Source of the DNA: Desulfofundulus kuznetsovii DSM 6115
Lineage (GTDB): Bacteria; Bacillota; Desulfotomaculia; Desulfotomaculales; Desulfovirgulaceae
Assembly (NCBI RefSeq): GCF_000214705.1
Contig: NC_015573.1
Location: 198,501 to 262,500, forward strand
Length of the DNA stretch: 64,000 nucleotides
Direction: 5' to 3'
The translations under genes and the position numbers were made by a program. Below the pieces are notes generated by a model. That model did no database searches and was not told the DNA's origin. It saw nothing but the letters and a program-made list of their open reading frames with translations. The stretch's first letter is position 1; each line of letters opens with the position of its first letter. Of this stretch, positions 1 to 32,909 are shown piece by piece.

Positions 1-139
1 GGTGGCCGATGTAAACGAGGCTCTGTGCCAGGGGTGCGGGGCCTGCGTGGCCGCCTGTCCCAACGGTGCTTCCCAGCAGAAGGGGTTTGAAAAGGCCCAG
101 CTCCTGGCCATGCTGGAGGCGGCCCTGGAAGCGGTGTAG
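1..139 (+). CDS. hdrA: HdrA-like protein, C-terminal end (partial)
   Basis: The window opens inside a reading frame whose last 45 codons encode a ferredoxin-type cluster motif (CQGCGACVAACP) and a short helical tail ending at TAG. These 139 bases are nearly the same as the last 139 bases of the complete hdrA at 522-3536, so this is the tail of a tandem paralogue of heterodisulfide reductase subunit A. The two diverge mainly in the final 20 codons. Only the end is visible, so the length and any domain differences cannot be judged. Confidence 0.85.
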   Translation, partial: VADVNEALCQGCGACVAACPNGASQQKGFEKAQLLAMLEAALEAV

Positions 140-225: not shown

Positions 226-493
226 TTTAAGGTCTGAACTATCGTTTTTTAGCCTGTTTTGGCTCGGAAGCGAGCGACTTGAGCCAAGCGGCAAGCCAAA
301 CTTAGCGAGGCGAAAAGCGAAGGCAGGCCCGAGGGCATGGATGCCCGAGGCCGGCAACTGAGGCAGGATGCCGAATTTGCCGGGAAGCCTGCCGGAGCTT
401 TGAGCCGAGCATTAGTTTGGCCCGCGAGGCTCACCGGAGCGAGCGAGAGCCAAAACAGGCTGGGTTGGAAAGTGGGGATAACTCAGGTTTAAG
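226..493. repeat. Palindromic intergenic repeat, family II
   Basis: Fills the gap between the two hdrA genes. A perfect 14-bp inverted repeat (252-265 and 447-460, GCCTGTTTTGGCTC) encloses about 180 bases rich in short GAGCGAG/GGCTCG inverted pieces, so a transcript could fold into a long imperfect hairpin. The outer right flank, about 431-490, recurs on the minus strand at 9249-9306. An open frame continues upstream of hdrA through this repeat, but there is no ribosome binding site for it. Confidence 0.65.
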
Positions 494-521
494 GCGATGT
501 TTTAACAAGGAGGCAGCTACC

Positions 522-3500
522 GTGGCAACAAACAGCCAGCCAAGAGGCTCCGTGGTGGTTGTGGGTGCCGGCATCAGCGGGATGCAGTCGGCCCTGGACC
601 TGGCCGAGGCGGGGTTTAAAGTCTACGTGGTGGAGCGGGGCCCCGCCATTGCCGGCCACATGTCCATGCTGGATAAAACCTTCCCCACCAACGATTGCTC
701 CATGTGCATCCTTTCCCCCAAAGTGGCCGACCTGGGAGGCCATCACAATATCGAAGTGCTCACCCTGGCCGAGGTTACCGGAGTGAGCGGCGAGCCGGGC
801 GACTTTACCGTTACCGTCCACAAACACCCCCGCTTTGTGGATTTAACCCGCTGTGTCAGCTGCGGCCGCTGCGAGCAGGTCTGCCCCCAGGAAGCGGCCG
901 ACGACTTCAACCAGGGCCTGGGTGTGCGCAAGGCCATCTACAAACCCTATGCCCAGGCTTTTCCCAACGCCTATGTGGTGGATCCCGGCGCCTGCCTGCA
1001 GTGCGGCGCATGCGTGGAGAAATGCGCCCGCAAGGCCATTGATCACAATATGCGCGGGGAAGAATTGCAGATCCGGGCGGGGGCGGTGATCCTTTCCCCC
1101 GGCTTTGAGCTGTTCGATGCGGCTGTCCGGCCGGAGCTCGGTTACGGGCGCTTCCCCAACGTGGTTACCAGCCTGCAGTTTGAGCGGATCTTGAGCGCTT
1201 CGGGGCCATATGAAGGCCATCTGGTGCGGCCTTCCGACGGCAAAGAGCCCCGGCGCATCGCCTGGCTGCAGTGCGTGGGCTCCCGGGAGCCCCGTTCCGG
1301 GATCGATTACTGCTCGGCGGTGTGCTGCATGTACGCGACCAAGGAGGCCATCGTCGCCAAGGAACACACACCCGGGCTGGAAACAACCATCTTTTACATG
1401 GATATGCGGGCCTACGGCAAGGGCTTTGAACAGTATTACCGGCGGGCAAAAGACGAGCTGGGTGTACGCTACGTCCGCTGTGTAGTATCCGAAGTGAAGG
1501 AAATACCCGGCACCAGGAACCTGCTGCTGCGCTACCGCACCCCGGAAGGCATTTTCCGGGAGGAAGAGTTCGACATGGTGGTGCTGTCGGTGGGCATGCG
1601 CCCCGCCCGGGGAGCCCGGGAACTGGCCGCCGCGCTGGGGGTGGAGCTGAACCGGTTCGGTTTTTGCCGGAACGATCCGTTTAACCCGGTGGCTACCTCC
1701 AGGCCGGGGATCTTTGCCGACGGCGCCTTTGCCGGCCCCAAGGACATCCCCGAGACGGTGACCGAGGCCAGCGCCGCGGCGGGCTGCGTCTCCCGGTTGT
1801 TGAGCGCCGCCCGGGGCAGCGAAACCCGGGTCAAGGAGTACCCCCCGGAAAGGCCGGTACATAAAGAGCCGCCCCGGGTGGGAGTGTTTGTCTGCCACTG
1901 CGGCATCAACATCGGCAGCGTGGTACGGGTGCCCGAGGTGGTGGAGTACGCCAAACGCCTGCCGTGGGTGGTGCACGCCCAGGAGTTTCTCTTTGCCTGC
2001 GCCCAGGACAGCCTGGAGAAGATCCGCAGGACCATTGTCAACCGCAAGCTCAACCGGGTGGTGGTGGCGTCGTGCACGCCGCGGACCCACGCGCCGCTGT
2101 TCCAGAACGTTTTGAGGGAAGCGGGGCTGAACCCCTACCTGTACGAGCACGTAAACATCCGGGAGCACTCCTCCTGGGTGCACCGGGACCGGCCGGAAGA
2201 AGCCACGGAAAAGGCCAAGGACCTGGTGCGCATGGCCGTAGCAAAGGTGCGCCTGCTCACCCCCATCACCCAGACCTATACCGAGATCAACAAGGGTGCC
2301 CTGGTGGTGGGCGGGGGAGTGGCGGGCATGACGACGGCCCTCTCCCTGGCGGAACAGGGCTTTCAAGTGAGCCTGGTGGAAAAGGAACGTGAGCTGGGCG
2401 GGAACGCCAGGTACCTCTACTACACCCTGCAGGGTTCGGATCCCCGGCAGTACTTGAACGAACTCATTGATAAAGTGCTCAACCACCCGTTGATCCAGGT
2501 GTTTACCGGGAGCCAGGTGGTGGAAGCCGGGGGTTACCCGGGCAACTACCACAGCCGCATCAAAACGCCGGAAAAGGAACTGGAAATAAGCCACGGGGCG
2601 GTGGTTCTGGCCACTGGGGCCAGGGAAGCCCGGCCGCAGGAATACCTTTTAGGGCAGCATCCCCGGGTGATGACCCAACGGGACCTGGAGGAACGCATCC
2701 ACCGGGGGGAAGTGCAGGGCCTCAACACGGTGGTCATGATCCAGTGCGTGGGATCGCGGGACGAGGAGCGGCCCTACTGCAGCCGGATCTGCTGCAGCCA
2801 TGCCCTCAAGAACGCCCTGAAGCTGAAGGAGCTGAAACCGCAGGCGAACATCTACATTCTCTACCGGGACATCCGGGTGTACGGGTTAAACGAGCAATAT
2901 TACACGCAGGCGCGGCAGAAGGGGATTATCTTCATCCGCTACGACCTGGGGAAAAAGCCGGAAGTGGAAGCGGCGGGCGAGGGTCTGGTGGTGAGGGCAG
3001 TGGACCACATTCTGGGGGTGGAACTGGCCATCGAGCCGGACGTGCTGGTCTTGAGTACGGGCGTGGTGCCCGGGGAGGACAACGGCAGGCTGAGCCAGCT
3101 GTTCAAGGTGCCTTTGAACAGCGACGGGTTCTTTTTGGAAGCGCACATGAAGCTGCGGCCGGTGGACTTTGCGGCGGAAGGGTTATACCTGTGCGGCTTG
3201 GCCCACTCGCCCAAGCTGGTGGGGGAAAGCATCACCCAGGCCAATGCGGCGGCCATGCGGGCGGTGACGCTGCTGGCCAGGGACAGGTTGGCCAACGTGG
3301 CCATTACCGCCACGGTGGAGGAGGAACTCTGCGTGGGCTGCGGCATGTGCGTTAAGGTGTGTGACTACCAGGCCCGGAGCATAGACCCTTTGCGGCGGGT
3401 GGCCGATGTAAACGAGGCTCTGTGCCAGGGGTGCGGGGCCTGTGTGGCCGCCTGTCCCAACGGCGCTTCCCAGCAAAAAGGTTACGAAAAGGGACAGTTG

Positions 3501-3536
3501 TTGGCCATGGTCAGCGCGGCCCTGGAAGCGGTGTAA
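522..3536 (+). CDS. hdrA: Heterodisulfide reductase subunit A-like, double-module flavoprotein (1004 aa)
   Basis: Iron-sulfur flavoprotein expected to be the FAD-containing, electron-bifurcating centre of an Hdr complex. The N-terminal half has an FAD-binding GAGISG loop near residue 15, two 4Fe-4S motifs (CVSCGRCEQVCP near 111-121, CLQCGACVEKC near 165) and the HdrA-type CVGSRE...CSAVCC cluster. A second nucleotide-binding loop (GGGVAG, about 595) opens a second module with CVGSRD...CSRICC, and two 4Fe-4S motifs close the protein (CVGCGMCVKVC, CQGCGACVAAC). At about 1000 aa it is much longer than methanogen HdrA (about 650 aa), consistent with fused modules. GTG start chosen because AAGGAGG (507-513) lies 8 nt upstream. 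It is followed by mvhD, an FrhB-like gene, hdrC and hdrB. Confidence 0.9.
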   Translation: MATNSQPRGSVVVVGAGISGMQSALDLAEAGFKVYVVERGPAIAGHMSMLDKTFPTNDCSMCILSPKVADLGGHHNIEVLTLAEVTGVSGEPGDFTVTVHKHPRFVDLTRCVSCGRCEQVCPQEAADDFNQGLGVRKAIYKPYAQAFPNAYVVDPGACLQCGACVEKCARKAIDHNMRGEELQIRAGAVILSPGFELFDAAVRPELGYGRFPNVVTSLQFERILSASGPYEGHLVRPSDGKEPRRIAWLQCVGSREPRSGIDYCSAVCCMYATKEAIVAKEHTPGLETTIFYMDMRAYGKGFEQYYRRAKDELGVRYVRCVVSEVKEIPGTRNLLLRYRTPEGIFREEEFDMVVLSVGMRPARGARELAAALGVELNRFGFCRNDPFNPVATSRPGIFADGAFAGPKDIPETVTEASAAAGCVSRLLSAARGSETRVKEYPPERPVHKEPPRVGVFVCHCGINIGSVVRVPEVVEYAKRLPWVVHAQEFLFACAQDSLEKIRRTIVNRKLNRVVVASCTPRTHAPLFQNVLREAGLNPYLYEHVNIREHSSWVHRDRPEEATEKAKDLVRMAVAKVRLLTPITQTYTEINKGALVVGGGVAGMTTALSLAEQGFQVSLVEKERELGGNARYLYYTLQGSDPRQYLNELIDKVLNHPLIQVFTGSQVVEAGGYPGNYHSRIKTPEKELEISHGAVVLATGAREARPQEYLLGQHPRVMTQRDLEERIHRGEVQGLNTVVMIQCVGSRDEERPYCSRICCSHALKNALKLKELKPQANIYILYRDIRVYGLNEQYYTQARQKGIIFIRYDLGKKPEVEAAGEGLVVRAVDHILGVELAIEPDVLVLSTGVVPGEDNGRLSQLFKVPLNSDGFFLEAHMKLRPVDFAAEGLYLCGLAHSPKLVGESITQANAAAMRAVTLLARDRLANVAITATVEEELCVGCGMCVKVCDYQARSIDPLRRVADVNEALCQGCGACVAACPNGASQQKGYEKGQLLAMVSAALEAV

Positions 3537-3631
3537 CAACGTACGAGAATTGGTCTTCCGAAGGCCGTTGGCCAAAAGACCGGCGCACCAAGTCCGTGCA
3601 CCGTTAAGTATTCAAGTGAGGAGGTTTTCCC

Positions 3632-4129
3632 ATGAGCGTGATGCTTTCGCAACCGCCGTTAGCGGACCCGGTTTCGCAAGAACGGCAGGAACCCGACCTG
3701 AAAGTGGTGGCTTCCTTCGAGCCTAAAATTGTCGGCCTGGTGTGTAACTGGTGCTCCTATGCGGGGGCGGACCTGGCCGGGACCTCCCGCATCCAGTATC
3801 CGCCCAACATCCGCCTGGTAAGGGTTATGTGCACCGGTTCGGTGGATCCCCTCTATATCCTGCGCCCCCTGATGGACGGGGCCGACGGCGTGCTGGTGGG
3901 CGGGTGACACCCGGGAGATTGCCACTATGGTAGTGGCAATTACAAAGCCCGGCGCCGCCTTGCGGCCTTAAGGGCCATCCTGAAACAGTTTGGCATCGGG
4001 GAAGAGCGGGTGTGGTTCCGTTTCATCAGCGCTTCCGAGGGCAAACGGTTTGCCGAAACAGTCCAGGAAATGGTTAACGAGTTGAAAAAACTGGGGCCCA
4101 ACCCCCTGCGCCGCCGCTGGGATATTTGA
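3632..4129 (+). CDS. mvhD: MvhD/FlpD-type hydrogenase delta subunit, probable selenoprotein (UGA = Sec92)
   Basis: Small iron-sulfur protein that passes electrons from a hydrogenase or formate dehydrogenase to HdrA. The frame opens with ATG behind GAGGAGG and reads through a TGA at 3905-3907 (codon 92) in the same frame to TGA at 4127-4129, giving 165 residues. Before the TGA lies the family segment GADGVLVGG; after it comes HPGDCHYGSGNYKARRR, then ISASEG near residue 135. Family members have GCHxGDCHY here, so the TGA sits exactly where Cys is expected. A perfect hairpin follows the UGA at bacterial-SECIS distance. A simple nonsense mutation is less likely because the downstream frame is fully conserved. 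Sec-containing members of this family are known. Insertion would need selABC elsewhere in the genome. Confidence 0.88.
3905..3940 (+). promoter_or_regulatory. Bacterial SECIS-like hairpin after UGA codon
   Basis: Immediately downstream of the in-frame TGA, ATTGCCACTA (3918-3927) pairs perfectly with TAGTGGCAAT (3931-3940), leaving a TGG apical loop. The loop begins 20 nt after the UGA and has G among its first residues, matching the general bacterial SECIS pattern (apical stem-loop roughly 16-37 nt after UGA). The hairpin lies within coding sequence, as bacterial SECIS elements do. Confidence 0.8.
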
Positions 4130-4166
4130 AGGGGTTAATGGGTCGCCTGCAAAAAGGTGATGGCTT

Positions 4167-5294
4167 ATGAAAACGGCTTTGCTTAAAGTTGAATCCGGTT
4201 CCCCCCGGCAGGCCGCGGCAAATTTTTTCCAGGCCCTGCTGGACCGGCAGGTGGTGGATGCCCTGATCGTTCCCAGGGAAGTGCCTTCCCGGCGCATGGT
4301 GGTGCCCGCCCTGGCCGTATCCGGGGATGGGCTGTCCGGCGCGAACCCCTTTGCCCCCGTGGCCATTATCAATGCTGCCCGGGCCGTAAGCAGGCTGACT
4401 TCCCGGGATCCCGGGGTGAAAGTGGGGGCGGTTTTGCGTCCCTGTGAAATCCGGGCGCTGGTGGAAATGGCCAAATTCCAGCAGATTACCCTGGAGCAGG
4501 TGCTGATCATCGGTACGGACTGCCTGGGCACCTTTGAGCCGGCCGATTATTACCACCTGACGGGGGCGGGCTTTGATACCGACGCCTGGCTGGCGCAGGC
4601 GGCCGGCTCCGGCAAGGCGGCCTTGAACGGGACGAAGATCAGAACGGCCTGTGCCATCTGCGAGGCCATATCTCCGTCAGGTGCCCATTTATCCCTGCAC
4701 TGGGTGGGCTGTGATGTTCACCGGGAGCTCTACATTGCCTGCGACGATGAACGGGTCAACCTGGACGCTCTCTTTGACGGCGGCATTTTAGTTCCGCACG
4801 AATTGCCGGCGGCCAGGCAGTCCCTGGTGGAATCCCTGCAAAAAGAGCGCCGGGAGCTGGCGCAGGAGATGTGCCGGGATTTTGCTTCACGGGTTGCGGA
4901 CGTCAACCGGCTGCTGGATGAACTGGCCCCCTGCCTGGGCTGCCATAACTGCCGGGAGGTTTGTCCCATCTGTGTCTGCCGGGAGTGTGTTTTTGACAGC
5001 AACCTGTTTGAACACGAGCCGTCAAGGTACCTGCACTGGGCGGCAGCCCGGGGTGCGCTGGAGCTGCCCACCGACACGCTGCTGTATCACCTGACGCGCA
5101 TGCATCACATGGGCGTCAGCTGCGTGGGCTGCGGCCAGTGTGAGAGCGGCTGTCCCAGCAAGATCCCCCTGACCCTTCTTTTCCGCACCATCGGGCAAAA
5201 GCTGCAGGACCTCTTCTCCTATGTGCCCGGTGCCAGCGTGGATGAGCCGCCTCCCCTGACCACTTACAAGGAGCACGAGCTGGAGCCCCGGTAA
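4167..5294 (+). CDS. FrhB/FdhB-family iron-sulfur protein (coenzyme F420 hydrogenase/dehydrogenase beta-like)
   Basis: A 375-residue cytosolic protein of the FrhB/FdhB family. The N-terminal half carries the family segment VLRPCEIRALVEMAKFQQ and LIIGTDCLGTF (about residues 90-120). The C-terminal half adds cysteine clusters CLGCHNCREVCPICVCREC (about 255-273) and CVGCGQCESGCPSK (about 319-332), fitting at least two 4Fe-4S centres. Related subunits bind flavin and exchange electrons with NAD(P)H, F420 or ferredoxin. The position between mvhD and hdrC suggests it is the pyridine-nucleotide or formate-dehydrogenase-facing module of the Hdr complex; that role is inferred. Separated from mvhD by 37 bp, so probably cotranscribed. 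Confidence 0.8.
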   Translation: MKTALLKVESGSPRQAAANFFQALLDRQVVDALIVPREVPSRRMVVPALAVSGDGLSGANPFAPVAIINAARAVSRLTSRDPGVKVGAVLRPCEIRALVEMAKFQQITLEQVLIIGTDCLGTFEPADYYHLTGAGFDTDAWLAQAAGSGKAALNGTKIRTACAICEAISPSGAHLSLHWVGCDVHRELYIACDDERVNLDALFDGGILVPHELPAARQSLVESLQKERRELAQEMCRDFASRVADVNRLLDELAPCLGCHNCREVCPICVCRECVFDSNLFEHEPSRYLHWAAARGALELPTDTLLYHLTRMHHMGVSCVGCGQCESGCPSKIPLTLLFRTIGQKLQDLFSYVPGASVDEPPPLTTYKEHELEPR

Positions 5295-5335: not shown

Positions 5336-5905
5336 ATGGCTACGGCCACTCTCCACCTTCCGGCAGGGGCAGTAACAGTGGATGCGGCGTTCCGGGAAGA
5401 GGTGGCCCGCTTAAGCGGCCAACCCCTGGAGCTCTGCTTCCAGTGCCAGAAATGCGCCTCCGGCTGTTACCCCACCCAGGAAGGTGACTATACGCCCAAT
5501 GAAATTATGCGCCTGATTCAGTACGGGGCCCGGGACGCGGTGTTGAGGAGCAGGACCATCTGGCTTTGTACGTCCTGTGAAACCTGCGGCCTGCGCTGTC
5601 CCAACGGCATCCGTATTGCAGAGGTTATGGACACTTTAAAACAAATGGCTGCTGCCCGCGGCATTGCACCGGCCGGTGAGACCGGCCCCCTGTTTCATAA
5701 CCTGTTTCTAAGCGAAATCCGGGCTGCCGGCCGGGTGCACGAAACCATGCTGATGCTGAAGTACAAGTTAAAAACCGGCAACCTTTTTGCGGACATGAAG
5801 CTGGGCTGGCAGCTTTTCCGGCGGGGCAAGCTGCCCCTGGTGCCGCGGCTGAAAAAAGACCCGGCGGTGCGGCGGATTTTTGAACGGGCCAGCGGGCAGG
5901 AGTAA
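5336..5905 (+). CDS. hdrC: Heterodisulfide reductase subunit C-like iron-sulfur protein
   Basis: A 189-residue ferredoxin-like protein with two CxxCxxCxxxC clusters (CFQCQKCASGC near residue 35 and CTSCETCGLRC near residue 80), the standard HdrC layout. The segment between them (YTPNEIMRLIQYGARDAVL) is also typical. HdrC relays electrons between the HdrA flavin centre and HdrB. It lies 41 bp after the FrhB-like gene, with hdrB 79 bp downstream, in the operon order hdrA-mvhD-frhB-hdrC-hdrB. Confidence 0.9.
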   Translation: MATATLHLPAGAVTVDAAFREEVARLSGQPLELCFQCQKCASGCYPTQEGDYTPNEIMRLIQYGARDAVLRSRTIWLCTSCETCGLRCPNGIRIAEVMDTLKQMAAARGIAPAGETGPLFHNLFLSEIRAAGRVHETMLMLKYKLKTGNLFADMKLGWQLFRRGKLPLVPRLKKDPAVRRIFERASGQE

Positions 5906-5984: not shown

Positions 5985-6836
5985 ATGCAATACAGCTACT
6001 ATCCCGGCTGTTCCCTGGAGGCCACCGGGGTGGAATACAACCTTTCCACCCGGGCGGTGGCCGGGGCCCTGGGGCTGGAGCTGGTGGAACTGCCCGGCTG
6101 GACCTGCTGCGGCTCCTCCTCCGCTCACGCGGTGAACAAAGACCTGGCCCTGGGTCTGGCGGCCCACAACATCGCCCTGGCCCAGGAGCAGGGGCGCGAC
6201 CTGGTGGTGCCCTGCTCGGCCTGTTATACCCGGCTGTGCAAGGCCGACCACGAGATGAGGCATGACCCCGCAGAAAAGGCCCGGGCGGAAAGGCTGGCCG
6301 GCTTTTCTTACACGGGCAAGATCCAGATTTATTCCTTTCTGGAAATAGTGAAGGACCGGGTGGGCTGTGATGAGGTGGCCCGGGCCGTGCGCAAACCCCT
6401 GACCGGCCTGAAGGTGGCCTGCTACTACGGGTGCCTGCTGGTACGCCCTCCGGAAGTGCGCCCTTTTGATCGGGCCGAGGATCCCACCTCCCTGGATGAG
6501 CTGGCTGCCGCCCTGGGGGCGGAGCCGGTTCCCTGGTGTTATAAAACCACCTGTTGCGGGGCCGGGCTTTCCCTGACCCGGCCGGAGGTGGTGGAGCAGC
6601 TGGTGGCCCGGATTTTGTCCGCCGCCCGGGAAGCCGGGGCCGACGCCCTGGTTACTGCCTGTCCGTTGTGCCAGAACAACCTGGAGATGCGCCGCCCGGC
6701 TCAAGAGGGCATCCCCGTGTTTTACTTTACCGAATTAATGGGCCTGGCTTTCGGGTTGGGGGAGGCACCCGGCTGGTTGAAGAAACACCTGGTCGATCCC
6801 TTCCCTTTGTTGCAGCGCTTTTCCCTGGTGGGGTAG
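5985..6836 (+). CDS. hdrB: Heterodisulfide reductase subunit B-like CCG-domain protein
   Basis: A 283-residue protein with two CCG cysteine-rich repeats: first YYPGCS (residues 5-10) with GWTCCGSSSAH (about 41), second CYYGC (about 145) with TTCCGAGLSL and CPLCQNNLEMR (about 190-230). CCG domains hold the noncubane 4Fe-4S clusters that form the disulfide-reducing site in HdrB. ATG start preceded by AAAGAAGAGG. It ends the Hdr gene series; no coenzyme M/B chemistry is expected in a bacterium, so the natural acceptor is unknown. Confidence 0.9.
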   Translation: MQYSYYPGCSLEATGVEYNLSTRAVAGALGLELVELPGWTCCGSSSAHAVNKDLALGLAAHNIALAQEQGRDLVVPCSACYTRLCKADHEMRHDPAEKARAERLAGFSYTGKIQIYSFLEIVKDRVGCDEVARAVRKPLTGLKVACYYGCLLVRPPEVRPFDRAEDPTSLDELAAALGAEPVPWCYKTTCCGAGLSLTRPEVVEQLVARILSAAREAGADALVTACPLCQNNLEMRRPAQEGIPVFYFTELMGLAFGLGEAPGWLKKHLVDPFPLLQRFSLVG

Positions 6837-32859: not shown

Positions 32860-32878
32860 AAGAAGAAGAATTCACTAA

Positions 32879-32909
32879 TACACCCCGGGTTTCCCGGGGT
32901 GTATTTTTG
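32879..32909 (+). terminator. Intrinsic terminator after fhs
   Basis: Perfect 11-bp stem TACACCCCGGG/CCCGGGGTGTA (32879-32889, 32893-32903), loop TTT, followed by TTTTTG. Confidence 0.9.

Follow-up and report, generated by a model that had tools for sequence, protein, structure and literature searches.

A probable selenocysteine-containing MvhD subunit, read through an internal UGA, in a bacterial Hdr gene cluster of Desulfofundulus kuznetsovii

The window, by which we mean the whole stretch of 64,000 nucleotides of Desulfofundulus kuznetsovii DNA analysed here, carries five genes side by side on one strand in the order hdrA-mvhD-fdhB-like-hdrC-hdrB. The second of them (3632-4129, plus strand), preceded by what reads like a ribosome-binding sequence (GAGGAGG, 3618-3624, plus strand), is very probably, judging from its sequence, a genuine selenoprotein gene: an mvhD (FlpD family) with a product of 165 amino acids and selenocysteine (Sec) at residue 92, assigned on the basis of PF02662, PDB chains and a single in-frame TGA. 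Its frame runs over 166 codons from the ATG at 3632 to the TGA at 4127-4129, and the sole internal stop is the TGA at 3905-3907, the codon of residue 92. The read-through translation, ...VLVGG-U-HPGDCHYGSGNYK..., covers PF02662 from end to end (residues 33-155, profile positions 1-123 of 123, 179.4 bits, E 3.1e-53), passing the gathering score of 22.3 bits across the whole domain, and matches six distinct PDB chains of MvhD type with E values from 3.1e-52 to 4.9e-36. An earlier sequence-only reading had the frame continue in phase beyond the TGA into the rest of MvhD, which the full-length domain match confirms. It had also placed the TGA (plus strand) at the first Cys of GCHxGDCHY; in the two alignments printed, those with 8rvu_F and 8rvv_F, residue 92 indeed faces the Cys of GGCHxGDCHY, and this aligned Cys, together with the TGA in relatives, is why we read the codon as selenocysteine. 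The conserved Cys set 38, 41, 67, 92 (as Sec) and 97 is invariant in a five-sequence alignment (A1) in which U was written as C. As the protein scores 148.4 bits with the VhuD model NF045873, below the NCBI cut-off of 215, we regard it as a relative of VhuD and not as VhuD proper.

The hdrA homologue in front of mvhD (417-3536, plus strand) is a mechanical open reading frame of 1039 amino acids free of internal TGA, for which the GTG at 522, located behind AAGGAGG at 507-513, appears to be the likelier start. Residues 481-638, behind a first flavin half (47-409), correspond to the N-terminal part of 8rvu_a, and a second flavin half, together with the C-terminal ferredoxin part, extends to residue 1037; the modules of methanogen HdrA are reordered here, with the 'N-terminal' part in the middle. 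Downstream of mvhD follow a gene for an FdhB/FrhB-like Fe-S subunit of 375 amino acids (4167-5294, plus strand; C-terminal domain PF04432 at 24.2 bits, cut-off 23.3), matching the PDB formate dehydrogenase chains 9t1s_M, 8rvu_E and 7bkb_E, an hdrC-like gene (5336-5905, plus strand; TIGR03290, E 3.5e-18) and an hdrB-like gene (5985-6836, plus strand; the CCG domain PF02754 in two stretches; TIGR03288, E 1.3e-50). Since HdrA (989 against an NCBIfam cut-off of 1100), HdrC (66 bits against a curated cut-off of 160) and HdrB (172 against 345) all score below the curated cut-offs, they are homologues and not the methanogen CoB-CoM heterodisulfide reductase.

At its left edge the window cuts an upstream HdrL-like gene (1475 amino acids), of which the 3' end lies at 1-139 (plus strand). 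Its product is a protein of HdrA type that includes a GltD-like part for NAD(P) binding (NF009410, 616 bits, cut-off 516, residues 153-659). The HdrL-like gene and hdrA stand in tandem (1-139 and 417-3536 of the window; L056:5712-13536), and blocks of 300 nt that are 98% and 90% identical lie beside blocks of 72-74% identity, which suggests recent gene conversion. Further upstream (L056:2824-4943) are encoded a DsrK-like protein (NF045796, 337 bits, below the cut-off of 400) and a hydrophobic protein of 242 amino acids, the latter with no Pfam match at 1e-5 and no NCBIfam match at 1e-10; the two perhaps connect the Hdr complex to the membrane. Elsewhere in the window (32878-32904), a perfect, G+C-rich hairpin of 12 bp followed by TTTTG on the plus strand is probably a transcription terminator.

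Behind the internal TGA, a spacer of 10 nt (3908-3917) leads to a perfect stem of 10 bp (3918-3927 paired with 3931-3940) closed by the loop TGG (3928-3930). We interpret this element (3918-3940, plus strand) as a bacterial SECIS hairpin on account of its model fit, the synonymous constraint on its codons and the contrast between Sec and Cys sequences. The sequence-only reading had described a perfect 10-bp stem with a small G-containing loop 10 nt beyond the TGA, and the coordinates agree. In the passages covered, the bSECIS model is given with a loop of 3-9 nt, a G at loop position 1 or 2, a stem of 4-16 bp, a UGA-to-loop distance of 16-37 nt and a minimum free energy of at most -7.5 (PMC13188914). 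The UGG loop of 3 nt, the stem of 10 bp, the spacing of 20 nt and the energy of -14.1 kcal/mol lie within every one of these constraints. Judged by folding energy alone (z -2.7), the 61-nt stretch is only moderately unusual, because 5 of 200 shuffles were equally stable. Among the 1532 TGA triplets of the window, counted in any frame on both strands, seven precede a perfect stem of at least 8 bp at SECIS spacing with a G within the first two loop bases, and the mvhD TGA is one of these seven. An Rfam search of window positions 3500-4200 gave zero matches; to our knowledge, Rfam has no family that covers bacterial SECIS elements in general.

For a comparison of hairpins between Sec and Cys homologues, 113 loci were used as input, namely the window gene, two paralogues, L061, L027-L055 and 80 named loci, the last being the best 80 of 589 confirmed in a scan of named genomes with two peptide patterns, one of which contains Cys. 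Three loci had no motif match, and the removal of duplicates left 50-nt sequences, 27 with Sec and 77 with Cys; a further paralogue, L023, in which Sec sits elsewhere, was left out. The 8-bp stem core was fully paired, with G-U allowed, in 26 of the 27 Sec sequences, most of which come from one order and have identical hairpin letters, and in none of the 77 Cys sequences, which include those from the best 80 of 589. The lone incomplete Sec sequence (L095) has seven of the eight core pairs, the most that Cys sequences reach as well (3/77). Median hairpin energies were -11.1 kcal/mol for Sec and -3.2 kcal/mol for Cys sequences. In the Cys set the amino-acid motif is nearly identical, and therefore protein constraint alone does not create the hairpin. 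As most Sec sequences have one common hairpin sequence, base-pair changes are few and the evidence is one of constraint, not of covariation. The named-genome scan yielded Cys and Sec in a ratio of 74:3 among the best 80 of 589 (3/80 unparsed), a ratio that is uninformative on frequency because one pattern contains Cys, so that the set is usable only as Cys controls.

The sequence-only reading had named the sel genes as a check, and they were found in the genome, a single contig of 3,601,386 bases. Adjoining selA (1,557,252-1,558,622; 631 bits, cut-off 268) and selB (1,555,321-1,557,207; 377 bits, cut-off 242) as well as selD (2,621,043-2,621,966; 399 bits, cut-off 125) exceed curated cut-offs that were reached by one (selA), two (selB) and two (selD) of 14 control genomes. 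The selD frame (L017:1501-2424) is itself interrupted by one in-frame TGA (AAG-U-AAK). A tRNA-Sec (selC) with the anticodon TCA lies at 1,535,798-1,535,891 (74.8 bits, cut-off 47; ARAGORN). Given that the tRNA-Sec model also matches all 14 control genomes, five of them over the cut-off, and exceeds the cut-off at four more places in the same genome, which are taken to be other long tRNAs, it is the anticodon call by ARAGORN that carries weight.

A TGA is present in each of the four stand-alone MvhD matches of the genome, namely the window gene, L021, L022 and L023, and absent from three additional matches that form domains of large proteins. L021 and L022 have Sec at the same site as the window gene. 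In L023 (genome 1,484,452-1,484,868, minus strand), Sec falls in the first motif (CHYU), with Cys at the Sec site of the window gene, so that two Sec placements coexist in one genome (L020-L022 versus L023). The TGA of L023 also has a hairpin behind it (-15.1 kcal/mol for 52 nt), and the TAA counted in this match opens the matched stretch as its first codon and terminates the preceding hdrA-like frame. Two of the other Sec-MvhD genes belong to a cluster elsewhere in the genome (L058) in which we read, from the translations, putative metVF- and flx-like genes.

An order-wide search of 113 genomes returned a match to the protein in 108, all paralogues counted. Of the 30 best matches, among them the window gene itself, 28 were assigned to its type on the grounds of similarity (64-99% identity); inspection of synteny covered G038 and G039. 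The alignment with homologues proposed by the sequence-only reading brought out the Cys/Sec pairing at residue 92: of the 28 closest sequences, with the window gene counted, 27 have TGA at this codon, and the exception, L037 of genome G038, has TGT (Cys) at the site and no hairpin. The remaining two of the 30 best matches (L054 and L055) have TGC, and in the genome of L054 the gene adjoins what read like hydrogenase subunits (L062). Nearly identical genes (99%) are present in Desulfofundulus thermosubterraneus DSM 16057 (L063) and in a Desulfovirgula sp. metagenome-assembled genome (L064). Across 27 Sec sequences, the synonymous difference per comparable pair was 0.06 at codons +4 to +11 beyond the TGA, compared to a mean of 0.52 over 118 others, and of 124 overlapping stretches of eight codons this is the one with the least synonymous variation. 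That 27 of the 28 closest sequences have the TGA, and that synonymous variation is at its minimum over the hairpin codons, rules out chance.

Pairs of equal-scoring MvhD matches were seen in six genomes (G038:C7, G042:C13, G053:C1, G057:C1, G058:C1 and G056), 7.8-8.5 kb apart in five of them and on two contigs in G056, which suggests a tandem duplication of the whole cluster. The two in G038, the genome of L037, are further MvhD matches and contain TGA. A candidate MvhD with two TGA codons (G062:C27) was rejected as an artefact, as the first TGA precedes the start codon. Viral contigs gave 16 pattern matches and zero MvhD relatives.

A sequencing error that turned TGC or TGT into TGA might be invoked, given that Cys stands at the site in 77 distinct homologue sequences, a set partly gathered with a Cys-containing pattern and including those from the best 80 of 589. 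However, TGA is found at the same codon in 26 of the 27 other closest sequences, five of them from the same genus, and it is TGA, not a Cys codon, that is accompanied by the full hairpin. An error is therefore excluded by relatives from separate assemblies, and we assign it practically no probability. It is likewise exceedingly improbable that the gene is a decayed pseudogene, or that it truly ends at 3907 with an unused tail, even though a plain stop reading gives an open reading frame of 91 amino acids. Across the 67 tail codons that were compared, none of the 28 closest sequences has a further stop. In nine pairs chosen for dN/dS, the ratios for the part after the TGA were 0.013, 0.015, 0.027, 0.033, 0.033, 0.034 and 0.113 in seven Sec-Sec pairs and 0.039 and 0.047 in two Sec-Cys pairs with L037, all of them rough because several pairs come close to saturation at synonymous sites. 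Without the hairpin codons, six Sec-Sec pairs gave 0.015-0.127, and the pair L036-L039 was not computable due to saturated synonymous sites. On these ratios, purifying selection plainly acts on the sequence behind the TGA.

The open frame beyond the TGA, taken by itself, would also fit a codon passed by near-cognate suppression or a reassigned code without any selenocysteine. This reading has to contend with a complete Sec machinery in the genome, a SECIS-type hairpin at the required spacing and homologues with Cys at the TGA site; general reassignment is further disfavoured because the mvhD frame itself terminates at a TGA (4127-4129). We consider it very unlikely. The prediction of selenocysteine at residue 92 is thus strongly supported by the machinery, the Cys/Sec pairing, the hairpin pattern and purifying selection.

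We hypothesize that three features hold together, and their joint reading is almost certainly the best explanation of the sequence data: an MvhD with Sec 92, insertion directed by the hairpin, and a role of the protein as the [2Fe-2S] subunit of an HdrABC complex. SelB and Sec-tRNA(UCA) would bind at the hairpin 10 nt beyond the UGA and insert Sec at residue 92; without this insertion, translation of mvhD would stop after 91 amino acids. As the small [2Fe-2S] subunit of the complex, MvhD would hand electrons to the flavin of HdrA, and the complex may be fed by the FdhB/FrhB-like partner, the NAD(P)H-linked HdrL partner or both. By homology, we propose an electron path similar to that of Elp-Hdr and Fdh-Hdr, for which NAD(P)H may serve as donor by way of HdrL. 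Sec 92 would be a ligand of the cluster or lie next to it. A tentative extension, which we regard as rather doubtful, is that Sec 92, as a selenolate ligand of the [2Fe-2S] cluster or as the residue beside it, adjusts the potential of this cluster to the bifurcating flavin, a separate adaptation common across the order and located at another Cys than that of CxxU.

The link to an Hdr complex drawn by the sequence-only reading is supported by the gene order, but its wording 'Sec-dependent' should soften to 'Sec-using', since the Cys counterpart L037 sits in a similar cluster (L059). This counterpart, together with two Sec sites in one genome, amounts to a natural experiment within the order that makes the role of Sec testable. 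The analysis corrects the reading of mvhD, a gene that a plain ORF caller halves, and connects an electron-transfer complex of the Hdr type in a bacterium with the supply of selenium; what is known of Sec in the MvhD family stays as it was. Sec-MvhD was already known (passages of PMC13188914 and PMC2702500), and so was its occurrence beside hdr genes in a bacterium (PMC2702500). The less documented aspect is the Sec site GUHxGDC, other than the listed CxxU, of which no description was found in the literature passages covered; the two-Sec protein tabulated in PMC13188914 may well contain it. No published description of the window mvhD was found among the papers listed in literature searches, as judged by titles, the start of abstracts and passages. 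By term search, the D. kuznetsovii methanol paper (PMC5770442) has no mention of seleno-, Hdr, Mvh, heterodisulfide or Desku_02. The same kind of search found one HdrA and no MvhD or selenocysteine for D. gibsoniae (PMC4148979), a Sec formate dehydrogenase and no Hdr or Mvh for D. salinus (PMC11206085), and the Sec machinery with glycine reductase and again no Hdr or Mvh for S. schinkii (PMC4642661).

That Sec is known in the MvhD family, as the sequence-only reading had stated, agrees with the passages covered of two papers, one on Desulfobacterium autotrophicum (PMC2702500) and one tabulating VhuD/MvhD/FrhD (PF02662) as experimentally verified selenoproteins with the motif CxxU and 2 Sec (PMC13188914, 2026); the VhuD of Methanococcus voltae is also listed as a selenoprotein (PMC2933860). 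In contrast to the methanogen CxxU with two Sec, the window MvhD has one Sec, in GUHxGDC, with CNWC intact, and while the archaeal SECIS is sought in the 3'-UTR (PMC11227280), the window hairpin is of the bacterial kind and lies within the reading frame. Window and methanogen proteins share the family, the use of Sec for Cys and the part of an electron connector to HdrA. Desulfobacterium autotrophicum belongs to a different phylum from the window host. Both are bacterial sulfate reducers with Sec-MvhD near hdr genes: D. autotrophicum is described with Sec in mvhD1, 2, 3 and 5, and its mvhD genes adjoin hdrA/hdrL genes (PMC2702500, as far as covered). Some of its HdrA and HdrL are Sec proteins too, unlike the window hdrA with no internal TGA.

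Flx-Hdr clusters of acetogens and sulfate reducers are bacterial HdrABC with MvhD. An HdrABC-MvhD-MetVF complex is described from bacteria as well (PMC5736913, in the part covered), whereas no metVF was seen beside the window cluster. For methanogen Elp-Hdr/Fdh-Hdr, the passages covered describe electrons that run from an FdhB-like subunit through the N-terminal clusters of HdrA and the MvhD-like [2Fe-2S] cluster and presumably on to the bifurcating flavin (PMC12350162). The structures 8rvu and 8rvv seem to belong to the Elp work, in that 8rwn, named in that paper, has an HdrA sequence common to 8rvu. It is unlikely that a role of F420 carries over unchanged from the methanogen complexes. Although no FdhA/ElpA-like gene was found among the annotated window neighbours and the HdrA modules stand in a different order, the HdrA, MvhD-like and FdhB-like chains of Elp-Hdr/Fdh-Hdr (8rvu, 8rvv, 8rwn; 7bkb, 7bkc) are matched by three neighbouring genes of the window.
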